NCBI GenBank assembly: GCA_947246015.1
Contig: CAMXQE010000004.1
Span: forward strand, 62,001-126,000
Reading direction: 5' to 3'
DNA: 64,000 nt
DNA from: an uncultured Lachnospiraceae bacterium
Lineage (GTDB): Bacteria > Bacillota > Clostridia > Lachnospirales > Lachnospiraceae
The notes beneath the pieces are model-generated. The model did not search any database. It saw only the letters and a program-made list of their open reading frames with translations, and had not been told where the DNA came from. The stretch's first letter is position 1. Each line of letters opens with the position of its first letter. The position numbers and the translations under genes were made by a program. This document shows, in pieces, positions 26,227 to 37,621 of the stretch.

Positions 26227-26673
26227 CTACGTAAACCCATCTTTTTCTTCATCATATTTATAAAATTCATATCCTTCTATCAGTTCAATCAGTTTTGATT
26301 CATAATTTTTAGACGGAGAATAGGGATATTCGGCTTCCTGCAGGTATTGTACTGCCAATATGTAATGTTTTTGCCCGATTAAGTTCTCCCAGTTCGGCCC
26401 TTCCTGATTATCTTCCCGCCATATGGCAAGATAATTATTATGGGAACGTACCGCATGGCAGATTGTCTTATGACGTCTGATACCGTCATGTCTGCGGGGA
26501 AATAACACTATTTCTTCCATATTCTGTACAGACTTCCCCCAATCCGTTCCTTCAACTGCAATAGCAATAACCAAAGACGGCAGGCATATTTTCCTGCCTC
26601 TCCAGTCCTCCACTGCTGATTTCGCAACCTGATGAACAAAATCCTGCTTTTCCTTCCTTTGCTCAATCTGCAT
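26227..26673 (-). CDS. GH73-like glucosaminidase domain protein without signal peptide
   Basis: Protein of 148 aa resembling a bare FlgJ/GH73 glucosaminidase domain: D-F-V-H-Q-V-A-K-S-A-V-E-D-W at the start, L-P-S-L-V-I-A-I-A-V-E-G-T-D-W-G carrying the expected catalytic Glu (normally E-S-x-W-G), then N-Y-E-S-K-L-I-E-L-I-E-G-Y-E-F-Y-K-Y-D at the end. The usual length is about 150 aa, so the domain is complete. There is no signal peptide or wall-binding module. It overlaps the end of the phosphatase gene by 11 bases and appears to be the last gene of the endolysin/DUF2589 operon. Confidence 0.68.
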   Translation of the reverse strand: MQIEQRKEKQDFVHQVAKSAVEDWRGRKICLPSLVIAIAVEGTDWGKSVQNMEEIVLFPRRHDGIRRHKTICHAVRSHNNYLAIWREDNQEGPNWENLIGQKHYILAVQYLQEAEYPYSPSKNYESKLIELIEGYEFYKYDEEKDGFT

Positions 26674-28912
26674 TATCCTGACTCTCCTTTCCGTAATCTG
26701 TATCTTTCTTCTTACAAATCAAGTGGTTTTTCCCTCCGGTATACTTGTATCCCATCCAGTCCATCCGTTTCTTCACAAGGTAAATGCCGAGTCCCCCTTT
26801 TTTCCTGTCCTCCAGCAGTTCCTCCACATCCGGGTCCGGCTTCTCCAAAGGATTATAAGGAATCCCATCATCTTCAAAATACAGACAGACTTCCTGCTGC
26901 GTGGGTATTCCGTTTTCCGCCGGAGTGTTTCCGCTTCCCTCTACCGCAATTCCCAGTGTAACTTCTGCTGCCTTGCTGTAATAGCAGATATTGGAGAAAA
27001 TTTCATCTACCGCCATCTGTATTTTTATGATTGTTTTCATGGATACTCCTTTTTCTATCAAAGTTTCTTCCACAAAATCGGCAAATTCCCGGATATACTT
27101 CATGTCCGGTATTCCTGTTTTCTTCTTGTATACCGTTCCGTGATAGGTAAGCGCTATCATGGTAATATCATCAAACTGCTCCGTATCCTGCTGGAACCGA
27201 CTGATATCCTCCCATATTTCCTTTAGTAACTCTTCCGGTGTCCGGATATTTTCTTTCTCTGCCACTGTCTTCAACCGTCCTTCTCCATATAATTCTTCCC
27301 GTATACTGGTAGCTTCTGTTACGCCGTCCGTATAAAGCAGAAGGGTATCTTCTTTGTTAATATGTATCTGTGACTTACTATAAGGAACTCCTTCCATGCC
27401 CGCCAATACCAGTCCTCCAAAAGTCGTATCATAATAGCAATCGCCGTTCTGTTTCCGAATCAAAGGCCGGCAGTGCCCCGCATTCACAAACACCAGCTCT
27501 CCGGTGGAAAGGGTCAGAATACCTATCCAGGCAGTGACAAACATACCGTTTTTATTATTGCTGCACAGTCTGTCGTTTATTTCTTCCACTGCCTGTTCCA
27601 AAGAATGACCCGCCATAATATGGCTCATAATATGACTGCGGATTAAAGTGCGGGATACTACCATGAACAATGCGGCCGGAACCCCTTTCCCTGATACATC
27701 CGCCATAACCAGTACCAGACGGTCATCATCCAGTAAAAAGAAATCATAAAAGTCACCGCCTACGCCTTTCGCGGGCATCATGGCAGCTGCTATGGAAAAT
27801 TCCTTCCGGTCAATAAACGCCCCTTCCGTCTCCGGAAGCATGTCCGCCTGCAATCTCGCCGCTACAGTCAGTTCTGTCCGGATTTTTTCTTTTTCCTCCG
27901 TAACCCTCGTCACATTCTGAATGTAATATCCTACATCCTGCATCATTTTCCAAAATGCAGCCGCCAGATATCCGGGTTCACCTGACAGCCGTGCCAGTTC
28001 CTGGCATTCCCTCATCCAGACTGCCAAATCATTTTCCTTACTTACGTCCTCAGGTTCACCTGCTACCTGTCTTTTCCTGTCCGCATATCCGATTGCCACT
28101 CTTGAGAGTTTTTCAATCGGAATGGATATCTTGTTCTGTAAATACTGCAGGAAACAGACGGATACTCCGCACAGAATAAAAAAGTCCACGGACACCCGTA
28201 TATATACCCTGTTCCAAAGCTGCAAAGCATCCTCTGTATAATGTATCGCTTCTGCATAAGAGGAAATCCCCATTAAGCTTGCCGAAAGCATACTGAGAAT
28301 CAAAAATATCAGTACAAACCTTACATTCAGCGTCAGCACATGCCTGCGTTCCTGGCCTCCCGCCATACTGCACAAAAGTATGATGGGAATTCCCAGCAAA
28401 ACAGAAAATACCAGATTGTTAAAAAATAAAAGGAGGGTAGACTGCGACCAAAATGTCCCCAGCCCCAAAAGATGCAGCATTCCTCCAAGCATAACTGCCA
28501 TCAGCATCGAATCCAGAATTACAATTCCCAAATAACGTCTGACATCCTTTGCATTGTTGAACCAGATTCTTTTCTTTCCTTTATATTCCTTATTTTCTTT
28601 TTTTCCCTTTCCCCAATTCCACATAAGATAAGGTATCCATCCGTACAGAAACTGAGCGATAAACCCATACAGGCATACCTGTACCGGATATCCGGAAAGT
28701 AAATCTGCCGCAAAATTGCCCACCGCACATCCCAAAGCCCCTGTTGCACCGAACAATATGCCGAATGCTGTCGGAAATGCACTCGCCGGCCTCACTTCTG
28801 TTAATCCTGTCATCCCAAACAGCTTCCGGAAGGGCATCGTAACCAAAAAAAATAAGATGGCAGTAACAATAAATATATTAATTTTTTTAATGATTTTCAT
28901 TTTTATCCCCAT
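26663..28912 (-). CDS. Membrane PP2C phosphatase fused to an anti-sigma-type kinase domain
   Basis: Protein of 749 aa joining three modules. Residues 1-210 form a membrane domain starting with G-L-T-E-V-R-P-A-S-A-F-P, shared with the neighbouring stand-alone protein and resembling ECF-S/QueT-type proteins. After a further helix pair and linker comes a SpoIIE/RsbU phosphatase (about 345-570) with metal-binding G-G-D-F-Y-D, A-D-V-S-G-K-G, Y-T-D-G-V-T-E-A and D-D-I-T-M. The end (about 590-735) is an RsbW-like HATPase with A-V-D-E-I-F-S-N-I and G-L-G-I-Y-L-V. Such fusions set the phosphorylation of a STAS protein; one lies in the same operon. No sigma factor is nearby, so the regulated target is unknown. 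Confidence 0.87.
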   Translation of the reverse strand: MGIKMKIIKKINIFIVTAILFFLVTMPFRKLFGMTGLTEVRPASAFPTAFGILFGATGALGCAVGNFAADLLSGYPVQVCLYGFIAQFLYGWIPYLMWNWGKGKKENKEYKGKKRIWFNNAKDVRRYLGIVILDSMLMAVMLGGMLHLLGLGTFWSQSTLLLFFNNLVFSVLLGIPIILLCSMAGGQERRHVLTLNVRFVLIFLILSMLSASLMGISSYAEAIHYTEDALQLWNRVYIRVSVDFFILCGVSVCFLQYLQNKISIPIEKLSRVAIGYADRKRQVAGEPEDVSKENDLAVWMRECQELARLSGEPGYLAAAFWKMMQDVGYYIQNVTRVTEEKEKIRTELTVAARLQADMLPETEGAFIDRKEFSIAAAMMPAKGVGGDFYDFFLLDDDRLVLVMADVSGKGVPAALFMVVSRTLIRSHIMSHIMAGHSLEQAVEEINDRLCSNNKNGMFVTAWIGILTLSTGELVFVNAGHCRPLIRKQNGDCYYDTTFGGLVLAGMEGVPYSKSQIHINKEDTLLLYTDGVTEATSIREELYGEGRLKTVAEKENIRTPEELLKEIWEDISRFQQDTEQFDDITMIALTYHGTVYKKKTGIPDMKYIREFADFVEETLIEKGVSMKTIIKIQMAVDEIFSNICYYSKAAEVTLGIAVEGSGNTPAENGIPTQQEVCLYFEDDGIPYNPLEKPDPDVEELLEDRKKGGLGIYLVKKRMDWMGYKYTGGKNHLICKKKDTDYGKESQDNAD

Positions 28913-28921
28913 TTCCGTACC

Positions 28922-29632
28922 TTAAACTGACAACATGACAAGTCCTGCTGCTGCCAGTACCGATACTGCCATCATCCATGGCTCCTCTGCCGGACTCCGG
29001 TTCCAAATGATTACAGAAACCCAAAGCAGGCACATGACTGCACTATAGGCAGAGAGCACTGTTATCCTGCAAACCTTTTTCTTGCAAAACAGATATTTTT
29101 CAGGTGCATCACAGCCTTTCATTCCCACGCTGTCAGAAGTCAGCATAATCAGCACAGGCATTCCCAAACCAATGGAAAAACCTATATTGTTGAAAAATAC
29201 ATACGTATATATCTGCCTTATCCATATTCCCTGCAGCAGATATAATCCAAAAGATAAAATCCACGCTACGGTCATGGCCCCTGAAAGACAAATCAGACAG
29301 TAATGAAAAATGTTTTTTCCGCTGTGCAGGTTCGGCCGTTCTTCCGAGAAAAAATGCCACAGCCTGTATGGAATCCATGCGGCCATGAAATTGCCAATAA
29401 ACCCCAGCACAGAACTAATAGAAAACGTACCTGCCATATCTGCAATCAGATTACCGATTCCACATGCCATGGCGCCCACCGGTCCGCACAGCAGTCCGGC
29501 TACGGGAGGTATGGCATTGACCGGTCTTACCTCTGTCAGCCCCTCCACCAGTACCATAACTTTAAAGGAAATTCCTAATATAAGAAAAGCTCCTAAAATA
29601 ATAAAAAACTGTTTTATTTTTCCATTTTTCAT
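28922..29632 (-). CDS. Stand-alone ECF-S/QueT-like membrane protein
   Basis: Membrane protein of 236 aa with about six helices. G-L-T-E-V-R-P-V-N-A-I-P-P-V-A-G-L-L-C-G-P-V-G-A matches the N-terminal domain of the phosphatase downstream (G-L-T-E-V-R-P-A-S-A-F-P-T-A-F-G), and F-F-N-N-I-G-F-S-I-G-L-G-M-P matches its F-F-N-N-L-V-F-S-V-L-L-G-I-P. The two therefore derive from one duplication. ECF-S proteins normally bind a small ligand for uptake; no ECF ATPase or T component is in the window. Its start overlaps the upstream stop (ATGA). A paired sensor with the phosphatase is a reasonable inference. Confidence 0.72.
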   Translation of the reverse strand: MKNGKIKQFFIILGAFLILGISFKVMVLVEGLTEVRPVNAIPPVAGLLCGPVGAMACGIGNLIADMAGTFSISSVLGFIGNFMAAWIPYRLWHFFSEERPNLHSGKNIFHYCLICLSGAMTVAWILSFGLYLLQGIWIRQIYTYVFFNNIGFSIGLGMPVLIMLTSDSVGMKGCDAPEKYLFCKKKVCRITVLSAYSAVMCLLWVSVIIWNRSPAEEPWMMAVSVLAAAGLVMLSV

Positions 29633-30537
29633 AATCTATTTGACCCTACCCCCTTTGCGCTCCTGCTTAAAAAGGAAAGTCCGGCTACAACTGCCCCCAA
29701 CGCAATCAATACGGCTCCTGCCGCCGAAGATAACTGAAAACCCTGTCCGCCTCCGTACGCTGCCGGCAAAAGCAGGGACAGAACTAACGTTACGACCGGT
29801 TCCGTAGAAGCAATAACCGTTACACTTACCGCATCCGTATATTTCTGTGAAAACATTAATGTAATATAAGCATATGCCTTGGCAAAAAATGCTAAAATAA
29901 ATATATTGGAAAGCAATTCCCTCGTATAGACAAGTCCTGAAAATGTAGCGGGATTTTCCCTGTACCAAAGAAGAAAACCTGTCAATGCGGTAAAAATCAT
30001 CTGCACAATACAGATGAGCAAAGGGTCTTCCTCCTTGGCATACCAGTCTACCGCAATGGTATACACGGCAGAACTGACACAACCGCCCAGCATATATATC
30101 GTTCCCAGGTGATAGAATCCCCCTATGGAAAACCTGCTGCTGACACACAGACCCGCCAGTATGATGACTGCGCCTGCGATATGGTTTGCCGTAGGTTTTT
30201 TATGGAAAAACAACTGTATTACCGGAACAATTATAATCGTAAGCGCCGCCAGAAAACTTGCATTTGATGCATCCAGCATGGAAATCCCTTTTTTTTCCAA
30301 AAGAAGGTTGACACTTAAAATTGCCGATAAAAAAAATCCTCTAATCCAGGTCTTCTTTTGCAGACCTTTCAGTCTGCCGGCAAATACCACCGACATAATG
30401 ACTGCCGCAATGCCGCAGGTCAATGTAAGATAAGCATAGGAAGATAAATTTTCAGGGAGATTCTTGATAAAAATATAAGATGCTGCCCAGCAAAGAGTAA
30501 TGGAGAAAAGCAGAATATTATTTTCCGTTTTCGTCAT
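29629..30537 (-). CDS. EamA/DMT-family transporter
   Basis: Ten-helix permease of 302 aa of the drug/metabolite superfamily. L-F-S-I-T-L-C-W-A-A-S-Y-I-F-I-K at the N-terminus and V-I-A-S-T-E-P-V-V-T-L-V-L-S-L-L-L-P in the second half are typical of the two EamA repeats. GGGAGTG precedes the ATG, four bases after the upstream stop. Substrate unknown. Its place between a DUF3574-like protein and the ECF-S-like protein suggests it belongs to the signalling part of this operon. Confidence 0.85.
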   Translation of the reverse strand: MTKTENNILLFSITLCWAASYIFIKNLPENLSSYAYLTLTCGIAAVIMSVVFAGRLKGLQKKTWIRGFFLSAILSVNLLLEKKGISMLDASNASFLAALTIIIVPVIQLFFHKKPTANHIAGAVIILAGLCVSSRFSIGGFYHLGTIYMLGGCVSSAVYTIAVDWYAKEEDPLLICIVQMIFTALTGFLLWYRENPATFSGLVYTRELLSNIFILAFFAKAYAYITLMFSQKYTDAVSVTVIASTEPVVTLVLSLLLPAAYGGGQGFQLSSAAGAVLIALGAVVAGLSFLSRSAKGVGSNRL

Positions 30538-30541
30538 GAAA

Positions 30542-31063
30542 TCACTCCCTTTCTTCCTGTACTTTACTGTAATAAACAGAATCCGAATTTTTTTCCTCCA
30601 GCAGAATCGAATTTTGGTTTAATGCCGGAAGAATATCATCCATAATCCGTATGATATCTTCCTCCTTTGCACGGATGGTATATACCAAAGTCTGTTCGCT
30701 GGTCAGCTTTCCTTTTTCATCAATCCATGCTCCTTCTGCTTTTGTCATCGTATAGCCGTCCACATACCGGATGCAGATTGCATTTATGATTTCCTGCGCT
30801 TCTTCCGTGGGAATCAGCTGCCTGTATTCGTCTTTGTCATTCAGCCCGATATACAATATGTACTCTTTTTCCTGCCTCTCCTCTGTTTCCTGTATGTCAG
30901 CGCTGTTTTTCCATTGTTCTGCAAAAAAGCATGTGAAACTGCCTCCCATACCGCCTGCCAAAGCAATACAGATAACTGCCAGCAGCAAAGCCGGTGCTTT
31001 TTCTAATTTTTCTACTCTTTTTGTTTTTGTGTCTTCCTTAACTTTTGTTTCTTCTCCTGTCAT
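30542..31063 (-). CDS. Membrane-anchored DUF3574-like protein
   Basis: Protein of 173 aa with a charged N-terminus, one membrane helix (about residues 21-43) and an outside domain. I-L-Y-I-G-L-N-D-K-D-E-Y, then V-D-G-Y-T-M-T-K-A-E-G-A-W and the following strands resemble DUF3574, a small alpha/beta domain of unknown function. The ATG at 31063 has GAGG eight bases upstream; the longer open frame is the dispersed leader repeat (copy B), not coding. Function unknown. Confidence 0.65.
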   Translation of the reverse strand: MTGEETKVKEDTKTKRVEKLEKAPALLLAVICIALAGGMGGSFTCFFAEQWKNSADIQETEERQEKEYILYIGLNDKDEYRQLIPTEEAQEIINAICIRYVDGYTMTKAEGAWIDEKGKLTSEQTLVYTIRAKEEDIIRIMDDILPALNQNSILLEEKNSDSVYYSKVQEERE

Positions 31064-31069
31064 ATTTTT

Positions 31070-31108
31070 CCTCATTTCTGCGCTGCTTTTTGCGCATACC
31101 AAGTTTGT
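31070..31108 (-). repeat. Dispersed leader repeat, copy B (before the DUF3574-like gene)
   Basis: A 39-bp segment nearly identical to copy A at 20526-20564 and, as there, it ends at the ribosome binding site of the next gene. Flanking sequence differs, so the unit itself has been copied. Confidence 0.7.
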
Positions 31109-31140
31109 CCTGCATATTTACTAATATGGTTTTGCCGGTA

Positions 31141-31440
31141 TTATTCCAAATCCATGATTTCCGAAAAACCTGTAATGACAAATACTTCCCTCACTTCCTC
31201 ATTGACGTTTCTGACTATCAGCTTTCCGCCTTGTTTTTTCATGGTTTTATGGGCAGAAAGCAAAACTCTCAGTCCGGCGGAAGATATATATTCCAGTTCC
31301 GCAAAATCCAAAACAACTTCTTTTCTCCCGCTCAGTTCCTCACCCAATTCTTCTTCCAACTGGGGCGCAGTGGTAGTATCCAGCCTGCCGCATACTTTCA
31401 TGGTGATTTTATCCTGTTTCTTTTTTATATCGATTATCAT
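31141..31440 (-). CDS. STAS-domain anti-anti-sigma factor (RsbV/SpoIIAA-like)
   Basis: Single STAS domain of 99 aa. V-C-G-R-L-D-T-T-T-A-P-Q-L-E is the first conserved block, and the phosphorylatable Ser region reads L-E-Y-I-S-S-A-G-L-R-V-L. AAGGAGA lies five bases before the ATG at 31440, which overlaps the stop of the previous gene. In partner switching an RsbW-type kinase phosphorylates this Ser and a PP2C phosphatase removes it. Both activities are fused in the protein at 26663-28912, so the two probably act together. Confidence 0.88.
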   Translation of the reverse strand: MIIDIKKKQDKITMKVCGRLDTTTAPQLEEELGEELSGRKEVVLDFAELEYISSAGLRVLLSAHKTMKKQGGKLIVRNVNEEVREVFVITGFSEIMDLE

Positions 31441-31724
31441 AAAGTCTCCTTTTCTTCCTCCTCCCATGCAGGTTTTCTCGTAAACCCTACATGATAGGTA
31501 ATTTTTTCCATGGTTAATTCATGTTCCCCAATCAGATATCTTCCAATCGTAATATCCTTTCCCATGATAACCCCTTTCGGATAGTCGTTCAGGCACTTAT
31601 TCAAAAGCGCCGCCTGTGCTTCTCTTGACTGCTCCGAAAGGGGATTGTTAGGATTAACGCTCCCAATGGGAACCAGTTTTACATATCGGATATCTGTCAG
31701 GGTAGTTTTTTCTTCCCTGCCCAT
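31437..31724 (-). CDS. Small protein of unknown function in the DUF2589 operon
   Basis: Soluble protein of 95 aa with no motif I recognise. It has one strand-rich middle (Y-V-K-L-V-P-I-G-S-V-N-P-N-N-P-L), a G-K-D-I-T-I-G-R-Y turn and a Glu-rich end. It overlaps the STAS gene by four bases (ATGA) and begins 17 bases after the second DUF2589 gene, which supports a functional tie between the DUF2589 proteins and the signalling genes. Confidence 0.6.
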   Translation of the reverse strand: MGREEKTTLTDIRYVKLVPIGSVNPNNPLSEQSREAQAALLNKCLNDYPKGVIMGKDITIGRYLIGEHELTMEKITYHVGFTRKPAWEEEEKETL

Positions 31725-31741: not shown

Positions 31742-33001
31742 TTATTTTTTCTTCTGGGCTGATGTATCCGCGGAAGCTGTATTATCTCCGGAAGTTGTAT
31801 GTTCCGAAACAGCAGGCGCCGTACCAGGCAGCGCTGCCGGAGCTTTTCCTGCTACCGCATCGCTGTACTCTGATTTCTTATCAAACAGCTCTGTCTCGAT
31901 TTGGCTGACATTTCTCTGATTGTCCACCGCACTCTTTTGCGCACCGAGTAAAGCAGCATAATAAGCCTCGCCTTTTTTGTATTCCTGCGGAGTTCCATTG
32001 TTATCCAATGCCTTTAAAGCAAACATTTCTGACAGTTCATCCGGGGATGTATTGCTGTCGGCAATCATTTTCACGAAATCTCCTGCCTGACTCTGGAATA
32101 CATTCCAGCACTGGTTGACTTCATCCATCGCCTGGCTGTATCCCATTACCAGTTTTTCACTGTCTTCTTTCTTTTTCTCCGCTGCTTTTCTCGCTTCGTC
32201 CGTCTTGGCTTCCTGAATTTCCTTATCCAGTTTGTCATTGTCAATGGCATTCATCAATCTGGTAATAGTTCCCTGATAAATATTCAACTGGGAACTGCCG
32301 ATTCTCTTTAACTGGGCTAAACTGTTCTCCAGCCCTCCTTTTGCAGCTCCCAAACGGTTTTCTATCTGACTGATTTCACTCCGCAGCGTCTTCAGACGCT
32401 CCGCCTTCAATCTAGCCTGTTCGGGCAGGCTCTGCCCGTTACCGTCCTTGATACTGCTTCCTACTAACATCGGCGCCACATTTGCCGCCATCATATCCAA
32501 TACCCTCGCCAGTCCTTCCGGCGTCCCATGGTTGGTAGCACGCACATCTACATGGTATTTCGCCGAATTATCAGAGCTTCTGGTATTGGACTGATGGGCG
32601 CTGATATTACCGGTTACGCTGACTTTCACAATCCCAAGATTCACGGAACCGGTTATCGTCGCCCCCATATCCATGGAAGATTCCTGACGCTCACTCTGTT
32701 TTACTTCCATGTCAAAAAGTATGTTCACCTCGTCTACCTGAAGGTTGGGAATGGGCACAATCGCCAGCATCGGTATATCTACTTTCATTTCATCCAGATT
32801 GCTGGTGCCGTCTTCATTTGCGCTGCGCTTCTGATAGCCGAACGCCACCGTCCGCACTTTTCCTTCCCCGTCAAATCCCACCCGGTTAATGAAGTCCGCC
32901 GTGGAATTTGCCAGCAGGGTGCTCGCATCCGCTGCTGCCCGCAAGGGGGCGCCGATTAGCTGGTCCATCTGTAATCCTGCAAATTGTTCTGCTATTGCCA
33001 T
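31742..33001 (-). CDS. DUF2589 protein, long form
   Basis: Soluble protein of 419 aa. The N-terminal part (1-190) is DUF2589: M-D-Q-L-I-G-A-P-L-R-A-A-A-D-A then I-P-M-L-A-I-V-P-I-P-N-L-Q-V-D-E-V. That block is shared with the paralogue at 34090-34950. Residues about 215-350 are helical, with Lys/Glu-rich heptads that suggest a coiled coil. The tail after 385 is rich in Ala, Pro, Thr and Ser. No signal peptide. AAGGGAT lies before the ATG. The function of DUF2589 is not established to my knowledge; the coiled coil suggests an assembly. Confidence 0.78.
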   Translation of the reverse strand: MAIAEQFAGLQMDQLIGAPLRAAADASTLLANSTADFINRVGFDGEGKVRTVAFGYQKRSANEDGTSNLDEMKVDIPMLAIVPIPNLQVDEVNILFDMEVKQSERQESSMDMGATITGSVNLGIVKVSVTGNISAHQSNTRSSDNSAKYHVDVRATNHGTPEGLARVLDMMAANVAPMLVGSSIKDGNGQSLPEQARLKAERLKTLRSEISQIENRLGAAKGGLENSLAQLKRIGSSQLNIYQGTITRLMNAIDNDKLDKEIQEAKTDEARKAAEKKKEDSEKLVMGYSQAMDEVNQCWNVFQSQAGDFVKMIADSNTSPDELSEMFALKALDNNGTPQEYKKGEAYYAALLGAQKSAVDNQRNVSQIETELFDKKSEYSDAVAGKAPAALPGTAPAVSEHTTSGDNTASADTSAQKKK

Positions 33002-33057: not shown

Positions 33058-33648
33058 TTAAAATCCTAATCCCTCAAAAATCTCGGACAACGAAGAGTTA
33101 TGATAGGAATTCACTTCCATGCGGATGCGTTCTGCCTCCTCTTTCTCCACTTTTTTGAATCCTGTGGTTTTAAATTCCGCTGTTCTTAATTTTTTCTGTT
33201 TTTCATCTACATCTATAATCTGCCGGCATATTGCAACATAAATATCCTTTTCCGTAAGCTGTACCAAAATGATAAAGTCCAGCCTTCTGGAATCCTTATC
33301 GTCTTCTTCGCTTGTACGGGTTCTTATCCCGTCGATTGTAACGCTCGGTTCATCATGAATGATAAAATTAATTACTTTTGTTCCCTCCTCTGTTTCTTCC
33401 GGCAGCGCTTCATAGGCATTTGTGAAAAGATTGGGAGATGGGCCATATGTACAAAACTTTTCAAATAAGTCCTCCCATGTTTCATTTTTTGCAAGGGCCG
33501 CATATTTTCTGTCTGTCCGCTCAAACCATTGTACCTTTGCATTTCCGTCCGCCGACGCATCTTCAACCACTACGTCAAATTTGTGCCCTACTATTTTGCC
33601 GCCATTATTTATTAACTCTACATTACGTATTTCCACTATATTGCTCAT
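33058..33648 (-). CDS. Protein of unknown function between the two DUF2589 genes
   Basis: Soluble protein of 196 aa. Its first 60 residues are strand-rich (V-E-I-R-N-V-E-L-I-N-N-G-G-K-I-V-G-H-K-F-D-V), then V-I-N-F-I-I-H-D-E-P-S-V-T-I-D-G and a helical, Lys/Glu-rich end. No catalytic motif is visible. GAGAGGA lies before the ATG. The neighbours suggest that it works with the DUF2589 proteins; the beta-rich start could be a binding domain. Confidence 0.6.
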   Translation of the reverse strand: MSNIVEIRNVELINNGGKIVGHKFDVVVEDASADGNAKVQWFERTDRKYAALAKNETWEDLFEKFCTYGPSPNLFTNAYEALPEETEEGTKVINFIIHDEPSVTIDGIRTRTSEEDDKDSRRLDFIILVQLTEKDIYVAICRQIIDVDEKQKKLRTAEFKTTGFKKVEKEEAERIRMEVNSYHNSSLSEIFEGLGF

Positions 33649-33683: not shown

Positions 33684-34097
33684 TTACTCCCCAAAAAAAT
33701 AGTTATAACATCTTTTTCCGGCTTTCCTGACCATGCTTCCTATCTTCAGAAATGGAAGAAAGAATGGTTTCTTCCGTTTCTGCGGAAATTCCATATACAC
33801 TACGCTGATACTATCTACCCACAGCCACATTTCCTCTGGAAGATTTCCGTTTTCCATTTCTGACTGCAAATCCAAGACAAGCCGCAGATTCATTTCCTCC
33901 GTCAGCTCTTTTACATGAAGACGGAGTTTCTGACGGATGCGTTCCTGTTCTTCTTCCTGGCTTTCCTCTTTTTCCGGCTTCTTCTTTTTTTCTTTCCATA
34001 CGGATTCTGTTTTTTCTGTTTCTTTTTCTGTTTCTTTACCTTTTGGTTTTTCTGCTCCTGATTTTTTCCTTCTAATCTTCTGCCATTTCTTATTCAT
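33684..34097 (-). CDS. Small Lys/Glu-rich protein of unknown function
   Basis: Protein of 137 aa. The first 60 residues are almost only Lys, Glu, Arg and Gln and probably disordered or coiled; the middle (L-R-L-H-V-K-E-L-T-E-E-M-N-L-R-L) is helical; the end is basic and aromatic. Its ATG at 34097 overlaps the stop of the first DUF2589 gene, so it is translated by coupling; a TTG 18 bases earlier is possible. No family recognised. Confidence 0.55.
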   Translation of the reverse strand: MNKKWQKIRRKKSGAEKPKGKETEKETEKTESVWKEKKKKPEKEESQEEEQERIRQKLRLHVKELTEEMNLRLVLDLQSEMENGNLPEEMWLWVDSISVVYMEFPQKRKKPFFLPFLKIGSMVRKAGKRCYNYFFGE

Positions 34098-34950
34098 AAT
34101 CTTTGTCCAATCCAAACTCGATTTCCTTGTTCATGATTTTCTCCTGATACTCCATAATGCGGTTGGCAATGTTGGACTGCGCCATCAGATACTTATCTTT
34201 ATCAAACTCTCTGGTCACTTCATCATAAGCGTCATAACTAATCTGCTGTAACCGTTCCTGTTCCGCAATCATATCCGAAATCTTCTGGTAAAGCAGTTTC
34301 AGCTTTTTAATTTTTGCCTTCATTTTCGAAACCTGCTGCCATGTATCCTTCTGTTCGTCAGTTCCCAAATTACCGTCCACCGCTACCGGTGTGGTGTCCG
34401 TTTTCTTGGCAATCTGGTTGGAGCTGAACATATCCGTCAGCCGCATGATTCCTTCGGTTGCCGGAAGGGAAGAAATCCTCATCCTGTAATTGACGCGGGG
34501 GAGAAAATCGCTCTCCCGCTGTTCGGGGGAACAAATACGGGCAGTAATCCTGCACTCTCCTTCTTCCCCTTTTTCAGCCATCACTTCGGTAGAAAAATCG
34601 ATTTCCGCTTTTTCCACATTCAGGTTGGTAATAGGCACAATGGACAAAAGGGGAACCTGCATCTGAAGGTTGTCCACACTGTAACCTTCTTCACCTTCCG
34701 GACGAACCTGCTCATAAGCAATGTTAATATTATTCAGTCGGACGGTTTCCTCCTGTCCGTTCTGCCGGAGAGTCCCCATACTCTTAATGGCATCCACCAC
34801 CTGCGCACGCAGCTGCTGGTTGGATTTGGCAAGGGCATGTAAAGGTGCATAAACCAAATCATCCAACGGAATAAACTCACTGTCCTTATAACCTTCCTGA
34901 CCACTTCCATTACCCAAAGTTTCATCCATATATTCCCTGTCTTCTGCCAA
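34090..34950 (-). CDS. DUF2589 protein, short form
   Basis: Soluble protein of 286 aa. L-D-D-L-V-Y-A-P-L-H-A-L-A and V-P-L-L-S-I-V-P-I-T-N-L-N-V-E-K-A match the long paralogue at 31742-33001. Residues about 200-275 are helical and charged, again like a coiled coil. The start is TTG at 34950 because AGGAGG lies nine bases before it; the first ATG (34929) has none. It directly follows the endolysin gene. Confidence 0.75.
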   Translation of the reverse strand: MAEDREYMDETLGNGSGQEGYKDSEFIPLDDLVYAPLHALAKSNQQLRAQVVDAIKSMGTLRQNGQEETVRLNNINIAYEQVRPEGEEGYSVDNLQMQVPLLSIVPITNLNVEKAEIDFSTEVMAEKGEEGECRITARICSPEQRESDFLPRVNYRMRISSLPATEGIMRLTDMFSSNQIAKKTDTTPVAVDGNLGTDEQKDTWQQVSKMKAKIKKLKLLYQKISDMIAEQERLQQISYDAYDEVTREFDKDKYLMAQSNIANRIMEYQEKIMNKEIEFGLDKDYE

Positions 34951-34975: not shown

Positions 34976-36052
34976 TTAGCTTAAGAAAAGCGCTCTTTCT
35001 TCTTCCCTCCGCCGTGTCAGTCCGGCAAGGACTTTACCGCCGCCCTTATTGTACTGAAGTATTTTTTCCGCTACGGTATCCGCATCCCTGCCTGTTACCA
35101 GTTTCTGCAAATTGCCGTTTCCGCAGTTATAACAAAAACTGGTCAGGGCATCAAACCGGTTCTGATTCATCGGAAATGTAATCAGCCCCTTTTTCACACA
35201 GTTGTTCACATAACCCCCGTATTTTTTCAAATCTTCTTTTAACAATGCTTTTGCCGCTGCTTCTGATGCTAATTTGTCTCCTGCATTCACGCCTGCTGTA
35301 TGTCCGTAACCAATCGTCCATACTCCGGCCGGACATTTATATGCTTCCAGACGGCAGCCCTCATATCCGGCAATCAGGTCCACTCCCTTATCCGAAATAA
35401 ACATTTCACCTCCCGGTGCAGCCGGAGTATCCGGCGCTTTCTGTACATGAACCGATGCCTCCGGCGCCGTCTGCGCGGAAACCGTTCTGCCCATTGCCGC
35501 ATTCACATCCTTCCGGAATCCGTCCATGGTATAGCCGCTCTGCAATCCGTTCCAAAGATGGTCAGGGTCCCCGTGTCCGGTAGCAATCCCCCTGTCATGC
35601 CCTTCCTTATGGCTGACAATTACACCGTCCGCAAGAGGGTTCAGCCCAAACTGCTTACAAAGAAACGCAAACAATTCCACTGCTGCATCATAAGTACGCT
35701 TCACCACAGCCATCGCCGCATCTCTGTCCGAGCAGACAAACGTAGCCCCTCCGGTATACTTCATGCAGGAAGGTTCGCACATTTCCACCCCGATATGGGT
35801 ATCATTGGAACTGCCGCCCCCATGCCATGCCCGGTGTTCCCATGGCAAAGTCTGATACACCTTTCCCGTATTACCGTCAATAAAGGCATGGACACATGCT
35901 CTTGCAGCATTCGGACTGTTCCACTGCCGTATAAACACCTCCGCCGAGGGCTGCGGACAACCTACACTATGCAGCATAAGCCCCTTTACCTTAATTTTTT
36001 TTCCTGCCTTAAAACAGGGATTGTTTGTCAGAATACTTTCCACAATCTCCAT
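34976..36052 (-). CDS. Bifunctional endolysin: amidase_2 plus GH24 lysozyme
   Basis: Protein of 358 aa with two peptidoglycan-cutting domains. Residues about 1-185 are an N-acetylmuramoyl-L-alanine amidase (PGRP/Amidase_2) with zinc-ligand candidates in M-L-H-S-V-G and G-H-G-D-P-D-H, and H-R-A-W-H. After an Ala/Pro-rich linker, residues about 218-358 are a T4-type GH24 lysozyme with the catalytic Glu in A-G-Y-E-G-C-R-L-E-A-Y and the T-I-G-Y-G-H-T motif. There is no signal peptide, as in phage endolysins, and no holin is seen. AAGGAGG lies nine bases before the ATG. It is the first gene of the DUF2589 operon and directly follows the proposed invertible promoter. Confidence 0.88.
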   Translation of the reverse strand: MEIVESILTNNPCFKAGKKIKVKGLMLHSVGCPQPSAEVFIRQWNSPNAARACVHAFIDGNTGKVYQTLPWEHRAWHGGGSSNDTHIGVEMCEPSCMKYTGGATFVCSDRDAAMAVVKRTYDAAVELFAFLCKQFGLNPLADGVIVSHKEGHDRGIATGHGDPDHLWNGLQSGYTMDGFRKDVNAAMGRTVSAQTAPEASVHVQKAPDTPAAPGGEMFISDKGVDLIAGYEGCRLEAYKCPAGVWTIGYGHTAGVNAGDKLASEAAAKALLKEDLKKYGGYVNNCVKKGLITFPMNQNRFDALTSFCYNCGNGNLQKLVTGRDADTVAEKILQYNKGGGKVLAGLTRRREEERALFLS

Positions 36053-36134: not shown

Positions 36135-36155
36135 AACATAATACGATATTTTGTT
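36135..36155. repeat. Left inverted repeat of the proposed invertible segment
   Basis: Nine-base arms AACATAATA and TATTTTGTT surround CGA. It matches the right copy in inverted orientation at 20 of 21 positions, including the asymmetric centre. Read on the minus strand it supplies TATTAT, which would serve as a -10 for the operon. It has no -35 at the right distance in the present orientation. Confidence 0.7.
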
Positions 36156-36603
36156 AAGAAGGATTTCCCGTAGTTTCATGGAATAAAGTTAGAAGGAGTT
36201 GTGGAAGTGGGACGCAGAGGATATAGATTTGATTAATTATAGACTTACTTTACTGAAATTATTAGAATGCACAGCGCCAGCAGGAGTGATTTGCCGGATG
36301 CTGGCGTAGGTTTGGTGTTCCATTTTTCATGCTTCGTTTTCAATGATATTTTTCTTAGCAGAATATCAAAATAATAAGGGGAACCGGTCATGGATGACCG
36401 GTTCAGCCCGATGCGGCAGGGATGCCGCTTGAGGGCGTCCCGCAGCCTGCAAAAATTTATATTATTCTGCTTAGAAAAATACATTGAAATAAGTGCATGG
36501 AAAATGGAACACCAAACCTACGCCAGCGTCCGGCAAATTACTCCTGCTGGCGCGTCCTTTGCTGCACACCAAAATTAATTTCAGAAAACCACTTGACATA
36601 TGC
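36156..36603. mobile_element. Proposed invertible promoter segment
   Basis: 448 bp between the two 21-bp inverted repeats, inside the 665-bp gene-free stretch 36053-36717. It carries a long imperfect palindrome (36274-36553) and, at its right edge, a TTGACA promoter pointing away from the operon. A tyrosine recombinase gene follows at once. A short frame with AGAAGGAG and GTG (36210-36239, nine codons) lies near the left end and may be chance. The present orientation is predicted OFF for the endolysin operon. Confidence 0.6.
36274..36553 (+). repeat. Long palindrome, possible structured RNA
   Basis: 36274-36332 pairs with 36495-36553 over 59 bp with three mismatches, all of which are G-U pairs in a plus-strand RNA. 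A second helix continues inward (about 36337-36366 with 36461-36490). The apex has a perfect 11-bp hairpin with a 2-base loop (36381-36404) and a GC-rich hairpin at about 36405-36435. It could be a structured RNA, a MITE-like insertion or a transcription block. Confidence 0.6.
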
Positions 36604-36621
36604 AACAAAATATCGTATTTT
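36593..36621 (+). promoter_or_regulatory. Outward-facing promoter at the right edge of the invertible segment
   Basis: TTGACA (36593-36598), 17 bp, TATTTT (36616-36621). The -35 is inside the segment and the -10 is inside the right inverted repeat. It now points to the 3' end of the recombinase gene and would make antisense RNA to it. After inversion the same -35 would pair with TATTAT of the left repeat and face the endolysin operon. Confidence 0.68.
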
Positions 36622-36624
36622 GTT
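36604..36624. repeat. Right inverted repeat of the proposed invertible segment
   Basis: AACAAAATA and TATTTTGTT around TCG: a 9-bp perfect palindrome with a 3-base centre. It is the inverted partner of 36135-36155. The bases just outside (ATATGC on the left, AA on the right) match the left copy in direct orientation, so att-like or operator roles are not excluded. Confidence 0.7.
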
Positions 36625-36717: not shown

Positions 36718-37539
36718 CTAAAAATTCAACCCGTCCAGCTTACTGCGTTTTTCCTCTGCTGACGTCGTTGTATAAATACGGGTGGTTTCTAAACTGGAGT
36801 GCCCTAAAATATCCGCTAACTCCGTTAAGTCAGCATACTGCTTCATATATGTTATGGCAAAAAGGTGCCGGAAACTATGAGGGTGCGCTCTTTTTTTCTC
36901 TACACCTGCCATGTCTGCCATATGGACTAACATCTTGTATACGGCAATCCTGCTGATTGCTTTTTCCTGATTTCCCTTGAAGATTACCCCGTTTTGTATT
37001 TCTTCCATTTTGCAGTAATCTTTCAGTTCCACTACAAGTTTGGCAGGAAGATACACTTCTCTCGTTTTGCCTTTATTGCCTACCATAAATTTTCCCAAAG
37101 AAAGAACTTCTACCGTCAGAAACGCAAGTTCACTAATCCGTATCCCCGTGAACACCAGAACTCTTATGATGTAATAATATTTAAACCTCCCGCTTTCTTT
37201 TGCATAGGAAAGTATACTCCTGTATTCTTCCATGTTAATGACATTTTCCAAACACCTGCTTTTTTGCAGGCGCTCCGTTTTTACAGTGCAATTTTCGTAT
37301 CCTGCATATTTTAAATAACTGTTGACGGCTACAATATACAAATTTATCGTTGTCACTTTTTTATTTTGGCTTAACAAATGTTTCTTATAACCTATCATTT
37401 CCTTTTTTGTAATTGGCCTGCCGTCTAAATATTCCAGCAAAAGCGTTGCCTGTCTTACATAAATATAAATGGTTCCTTCTGATAATTCTTTTTGGAATAG
37501 ATAATCTGCATATTTCTCCAGCTTCTTTGCTTCTTTCAT
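36718..37539 (-). CDS. Tyrosine recombinase (integrase/invertase type)
   Basis: Site-specific recombinase of 273 aa. An N-terminal SAM-like core-binding domain (about 1-85) is followed by the catalytic domain with the complete set: Arg in F-T-G-I-R-I-S-E-L, Lys in G-N-K-G-K-T-R-E, H-x-x-R in H-P-H-S-F-R-H-L-F, His in L-G-H-S-S-L-E-T-T and the Tyr nucleophile in R-I-Y-T. The size suits Xer-type or phase-switch invertases; it lacks the extra arm-binding domain of phage integrases. GAGGT lies eight bases before the ATG at 37539. It is probably transcribed from the helicase side and lies beside the inverted repeats. Confidence 0.9.
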   Translation of the reverse strand: MKEAKKLEKYADYLFQKELSEGTIYIYVRQATLLLEYLDGRPITKKEMIGYKKHLLSQNKKVTTINLYIVAVNSYLKYAGYENCTVKTERLQKSRCLENVINMEEYRSILSYAKESGRFKYYYIIRVLVFTGIRISELAFLTVEVLSLGKFMVGNKGKTREVYLPAKLVVELKDYCKMEEIQNGVIFKGNQEKAISRIAVYKMLVHMADMAGVEKKRAHPHSFRHLFAITYMKQYADLTELADILGHSSLETTRIYTTTSAEEKRSKLDGLNF

Positions 37540-37621
37540 TTTGTTACCTCGCTTCCCTTTTACAAACATCCGGCATAAGAAGCTGTTTTCTATATAACAG
37601 GGGATATCTTACCTTACCATA

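Follow-up and report, generated by a model that had tools for sequence, protein, structure and literature searches.

A promoter-inversion switch predicted upstream of an endolysin/DUF2589 operon in an uncultured Lachnospiraceae bacterium and seen OFF across its close relatives

Recombinase, arms and split promoter at the locus

The window, that is, the whole 64-kb stretch of DNA analyzed here, belongs to a 3.9 Mb genome in 96 contigs. It contains a tyrosine recombinase gene, a segment bounded by two inverted 21-bp arms, and an operon in which an endolysin-like gene is followed by a first DUF2589 gene (DUF2589-A), two genes without a Pfam family, a second DUF2589 gene (DUF2589-B), the gene of a 95-aa protein and that of a STAS-like protein (Table 1). 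The lysin ATG was preceded by a good ribosome-binding site. When compared to PDB sequences, DUF2589-B had two weak matches (best E 0.072), and a literature search for DUF2589 returned only work on another subject, judged by title. PADLOC gave no matches for the eight proteins tested, and PHROGs matches were limited to the recombinase and the lysin.

Table 1. Features of the switch locus and of the operon behind it (window positions)
Feature	Position	Strand	Basis or remark
108-aa protein	31141..31467	-	read by eye as STAS domain; relatives in other loci
95-aa operon protein	31437..31724	-	relatives in other loci
DUF2589 protein B	31742..33001	-	PF11655, 2.9e-38
Operon gene without Pfam family	33058..33648	-	relative in L062
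Small charged protein without Pfam family	33684..34115	-	relatives in L051, L053, L062, L070
DUF2589 protein A	34090..34950	-	PF11655, 1.7e-15
First operon gene, endolysin-like	34976..36052	-	domain matches to Amidase_2 and Phage_lysozyme
Operon-side recombination arm	36135..36155		minus strand holds latent -10 TATTAT (36143-36138)
Segment, inversion predicted	36156..36603		arms and in-silico inversion
Inner palindrome	36274..36553		inverted repeat 36274-36352/36475-36553; 79-nt arms, 86%
TwoAYGGAY RNA (RF01731) inside segment	36333..36494	+	88.3 bits, gathering score 43; fold z -9.3
Promoter TTGACA-17-TATTTT	36593..36621	+	-35 inside segment; aimed at recombinase gene (OFF state)
Recombinase-side recombination arm	36604..36624		plus strand holds -10 TATTTT, used in the orientation seen
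Tyrosine recombinase, 283 aa, complete	36718..37569	-	Pfam Phage_integrase 4.7e-24 and SAM-like N-terminal domain

The recombinase was closest to XerA-, XerC- and XerD-type models, with scores below their cut-offs. Six residues (R144, K166, H231, R234, H257 and Y266), which we take to be the catalytic set of tyrosine recombinases, were invariant in ten aligned recombinases, the window's included, and the aligned genes remained open. Together with the Pfam domains, this agrees with the preliminary description of the locus, in which a complete tyrosine recombinase gene adjoined the sites. Among viral contigs, searching with the recombinase alignment yielded 103 relatives, of which 80, at 21-45% identity, were kept.

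As inverted repeats, the arms agreed at 20 of their 21 positions, the asymmetric three-base centre (CGA/TCG) included, exactly as previously claimed. Both are near-palindromic, having half-sites ACAAAATA/TATTTTGT of 8-9 bp each around 3 bp, and orientation is therefore fixed by the asymmetric centre only. Two half-sites around a short centre form the layout expected of a tyrosine-recombinase core site. Inverted 21-mers matching at 20 or more positions within 700 bp occurred at two places in the window, namely the arm pair and an inner palindrome, and at none in eight dinucleotide shuffles of it. The single mismatch between the arms is precisely the change between the -10 hexamers TATTTT and TATTAT.

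One strong promoter was found at the locus, and it reads toward the recombinase gene. On the minus strand of the left, operon-side arm, no TTGACA was present 16-18 bp upstream of TATTAT, and only a poor TTAACA-16-TTGCAT lay nearby. An in-silico crossover within the arm centres produced TTGACA-17-TATTAT on the minus strand, with the -10 ending at 36138, and thereby turned the promoter to the operon; in this inverted state transcription would start at about 36131, giving a 79-nt leader to the endolysin ATG at 36052. The preliminary description was thus accurate regarding the sole good promoter facing off the operon, the left-site -10 without a -35, their joining at exactly 17 bp upon inversion and, for the window, the OFF call. 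Because promoter-like sites as such were not rare (three found versus 2.4 in shuffles), the weight falls on the position of the promoter and on its conservation.

The inner palindrome, which the preliminary description lacked, holds an RNA element that scored above the gathering cut-off of the Rfam TwoAYGGAY covariance model. It is because of this palindrome and element that the window's segment is long, at about 450 bp versus 102-196 bp in relatives (154 in L113 and 120 in L228). TwoAYGGAY matches over the cut-off were dispersed in the genus, being present in 12 of 16 genomes, with 58 in one and three in the window's genome, and there were none in 14 control genomes. By geometry the element stays upstream of the promoter whichever way the segment faces, and the operon transcript is not expected to contain it. 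Its spread as a dispersed repeat questions a simple cis-regulatory role.

Layout, cargo and orientation in the close subfamily

The genomes searched numbered 299 and 397 in the family, 16 in the genus, 138 and 3 in two further genera, and 392 in the order; these sets overlap, their thresholds differ, and the best-scoring loci, not all matches, were read. The nearest named recombinase loci came from uncultured Lachnospiraceae and Acetatifactor, and five contig-database loci carried recombinases 55-76% identical to that of the window. After removal of duplicate contigs (L103-L107, which repeat L052, L053, L051, L054 and L069), the full split-promoter layout was present in 21 distinct loci (the window, L051-L055, L069-L072, L074, L108-L116 and L228), 19 of them read by script and two, L113 and L228, by eye. 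All 21 had the half-promoter at the recombinase-side arm and a spacer of 17. The -35 was TTGACA in 19 and degenerate in two (TTGACT in L071, TTGATT in L114). The -10 expected after inversion was TATTAT in 18, TAATAT in two (L052, L053) and TATTTT in one (L071), and that of the recombinase-side arm was TATTTT in 12, TATTAT in eight and TATTTC in one. Hence, the arm that is idle in the OFF state carries the better hexamer (Fisher p 0.008 over the first 20 loci, a guide only, since the loci are related and the counts were entered by hand). Moreover, the arm centres varied across loci (CGA, CAA, CTA) and had changed together in both arms.

Among recombinases at least 44% identical, no arm pair was found at L024/L073 (44% for L024). 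In genome G363, the switch and operon (L070) stood without an adjoining recombinase gene, relatives of which lie on other contigs of this genome. Of these, the gene on C66 ends 78 bases from the contig end with no visible arms, and no arm-like site was present downstream of a partial copy on C4; the two copies (L214, L215) are at contig ends elsewhere. In the sister genome G014, a contig end falls inside the recombinase gene and a contig end falls inside the segment. Terminator-like hairpins in the recombinase-to-operon direction were found in 11 of the 21 segments, the window's having none, with 6/21 in the opposite direction and 35 of 420 in shuffled segments (base shuffles, one direction). 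It is suggestive, not decisive, that such hairpins might shield the operon from read-through.

The genes behind the switch varied. A lysin relative was present in 15 of the 21 loci (the window, L051-L054, L069, L070, L108-L113, L115 and L116; L113 counted from its gene start only) and a DUF2589 relative in 13 (the window, L051, L053, L054, L069-L071, L108, L109, L111, L112, L116 and L228), that of L112 being a fragment. The DNA of L052, L110, L113 and L115 stops too early for DUF2589 to be judged, and neither gene was found in L055 (about 1.7 kb read), L072, L074 or L114; five loci (L108, L109, L111, L114 and L116) were read further downstream as L222-L226. The lysin, DUF2589-A and DUF2589-B were all present in ten loci. 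The first gene differed in several cases, specifically DUF6765 in L054, a DUF2971 protein in L055, an endonuclease/exonuclease/phosphatase-like protein in L072 and a short HNH match in L071. Judged by gene content, the switch and its varied operons resemble a conserved carrier with changing cargo.

Separately, 14 of the 397 family genomes, the window's among them, matched the amidase half of the lysin (34976-36052) closely (L082-L095); in most of these the alignment did not extend to the lysozyme half, and the DNA read held no matching arm pair. Downstream of the operon, in 26663-31467 of the window and in L051, L053 and L054, STAS and SpoIIE-type phosphatase genes were read by eye, and L051 had a weak GNAT match there. 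Perhaps a partner-switching regulator travels with the module, to judge from the STAS and SpoIIE-type genes.

With respect to orientation, every one of the 21 loci was OFF, with the split promoter at the recombinase-side arm, and none was ON; a single orientation was thus seen at the locus and in the close subfamily. The call was clear in 19 and weaker for L114 and for L071, in which two scans scored an operon-facing site higher. The L051 segment also holds an operon-facing TTTACA-17-TATATT. No TTGACA was found at 16-18 bp beside the operon-side arm in any of the 21 loci (L113 and L228 by eye), and the operon-side arm of G014, without an adjacent -35, reads OFF too. The groups L110/L111/L112/L115 and L052/L053 each shared one orientation. 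If loci are assumed to be independent draws, 0 of 20 ON places an upper 95% bound of 14% on the ON state. With 0 of 21 ON, a switch that is ON as often as OFF would not be expected.

Inversion in the wider recombinase family

Of 66 recombinase loci, which are best-scoring matches and not a census, nine had too little downstream DNA, and the remaining 57 were tested by half-site pairing with the centre masked. Arm pairs lay downstream of the recombinase in 46 of the 57. In all 46 the centres matched in inverted orientation, versus two in direct orientation, although the centres themselves varied widely from locus to locus, and permuted partners gave matching centres in 6.0 pairs on average and 13 at most. 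The other 11 had no pair at the thresholds used, although two of them, L052 and L109, have arms in the script reading. The 46 loci, each with its own inverted arm pair and 120-514 bp between the arms, form a large set of likely switches. Among these, the best promoter-like site in the segments of 29 more distant loci pointed toward the recombinase in 18 and away from it in seven, with four ties; the score differences were mostly small, and the scan is not taken as evidence of state. Based on the 18 versus seven, an excess of OFF may extend wider than the close subfamily.

A 222-bp segment was 99.5% identical but flipped between two near-identical loci, L118 and L132 (also L219 and L220), of genomes G542 and G465. 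Their flanks were collinear, with 98.2% and 99.4% identity over 5.7 and 5.1 kb. The recombinases of this pair are 39% identical to that of the window, and the arms of their subfamily lack a -10 of the sort described above. The gene downstream encodes 564 aa and starts MCDAIMGGGTSDMCGRRFGS. Because the segment is flipped between collinear contigs, this comparison of assemblies shows that inversion at such arms does take place in this recombinase family. The comparison of orientation in relatives, which had been set beforehand as a check, therefore gave a divided answer, with one state throughout the close subfamily and both states at a distant recombinase locus.

Interpretation, rival readings and known systems

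We consider it highly likely that the neighbouring tyrosine recombinase operates the locus as a promoter-inversion switch, seen here OFF, inversion at the window locus itself being a prediction from its arms. The invertible promoter of the preliminary description stands insofar as the layout recurs in 21 loci, the centres match and a distant pair is inverted; the fixed orientation of the close subfamily is among the outcomes that it had listed as counting against it. According to the proposed mechanism, the segment would flip through strand exchange in the arm centres by recombinase bound to both half-sites of each arm. The promoter is split, its -35 lying inside the segment and its -10 being supplied by the outer half of whichever arm adjoins. 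In the OFF state, TATTTT at the recombinase-side arm would drive transcription into the recombinase gene in the antisense direction. Inversion would bring in the better TATTAT of the operon-side arm and have the endolysin/DUF2589 operon transcribed from about 36131, and we infer from the hexamers that the two states differ in promoter strength. The turn of the promoter to its target gene, which was reproduced in silico for the window, is predicted from the arms at the other loci.

A reading in which the near-palindromic arms, each overlapping the promoter or a -10 box, are transcription-factor sites that resemble recombination sites by chance would account for their form. Operators, however, do not need a matching asymmetric centre, and the finding that centres match in inverted orientation in 46 of 46 pairs, against two in direct orientation, together with the location of these pairs behind a recombinase gene (46 of the 57 loci tested), makes it very improbable. 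Another reading, in which a mobile element enters or leaves between direct repeats (ATATGC...TTAA flanks) or the assembly is at fault, draws on the likeness in direct orientation of short flanks outside the 21 bp and on the repeat element inside the segment. Yet relatives with segments of only 102-196 bp still have the arms and the promoter, no empty site without the segment occurred among the 21 loci, and the flank likeness was not seen again in relatives inspected by eye. The direct-repeat reading was set aside on that last ground, and we give it next to no credence.

A former or locked switch has more to be said for it. Here, the subfamily would no longer invert, the arms would persist as operators bound by the recombinase or because they decay slowly, and the promoter would only make RNA antisense to the recombinase, as would fit a subfamily with 0 of 21 loci ON and a single orientation within both groups of loci noted above. 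Against this, TATTAT is kept in 18 of 21 operon-side arms, exactly where only inversion would use it, the centres CGA, CAA and CTA have co-changed in both arms, and the aligned recombinase genes are open with invariant catalytic columns. On balance, we hold a locked switch to be unlikely.

For the promoter-inversion switch that we prefer, the uniform state would mean that ON is rare, short-lived or harmful, and an OFF bias might arise in several ways. The antisense transcript could lower the recombinase, a brake that would be lifted in ON so that the segment flips back at once. Alternatively, ON cells might lyse, given the lysin, or lose in competition. FimE is a directional recombinase, and the one here may be directional as well. 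Because L070 is OFF without an adjoining recombinase gene, antisense control in cis cannot be the sole cause. It may also be that the subfamily seldom inverts. That the switch is held OFF by design, through unequal -10s, antisense self-silencing and ON cells that flip back or lyse and so leave every population looking OFF, is a tentative proposal that we regard as possible, if rather doubtful.

The fim promoter of Escherichia coli lies whole within the invertible element; unlike it, the window's -10 sits in the arm. What the two have in common is an invertible promoter and tyrosine recombinases (PMC7241687). In Clostridioides difficile, RecV inverts regulatory DNA that precedes an operon, as in the flagellar switch (PMC5386303) and cwpV (PMC2784873), and this one recombinase serves several segments (PMC7241687). 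The window's system is similar in the flipping of such a segment, as predicted, and differs from RecV in that the recombinase adjoins the segment and the arm supplies the missing part of the promoter. In a read-based survey of gut invertons, Clostridia inverton group 139 was linked to tyrosine-type recombinase group 35 and shifted orientation in culture, as measured from reads (PMC11892184). The window's system is akin to these in its host class and recombinase type, and the group 139 arms are little over 200 bp apart in two examples (PMC11892184). The words endolysin, amidase and lysozyme are absent from the main text of that survey, and the lysin target is a feature of the window. Our literature search on invertible promoters with a tyrosine recombinase, Lachnospiraceae or endolysin returned no title on this system; the combination of invertible promoter and endolysin appeared, by title, in gut-phage work.

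The system predicted in the window, a split-promoter inversion switch before a lysin/DUF2589 operon, thus belongs to a known kind, and it varies from the systems compared above in its arm-completed promoter, unequal -10s, lysin/DUF2589 target and uniform OFF state. Gut Clostridia were already known to have invertible promoters; this one would be tunable through its arms, and is present in 21 loci with one state seen. It would link phase variation to an operon with lysin and DUF2589 proteins, and makes testable the idea that bacteria use inversion to reach a rare state of lysis or release, and not to vary their surface. If the OFF-by-design reading is true, the inversion switch of these bacteria would serve a cell state that is rare, pulse-like or self-sacrificing.
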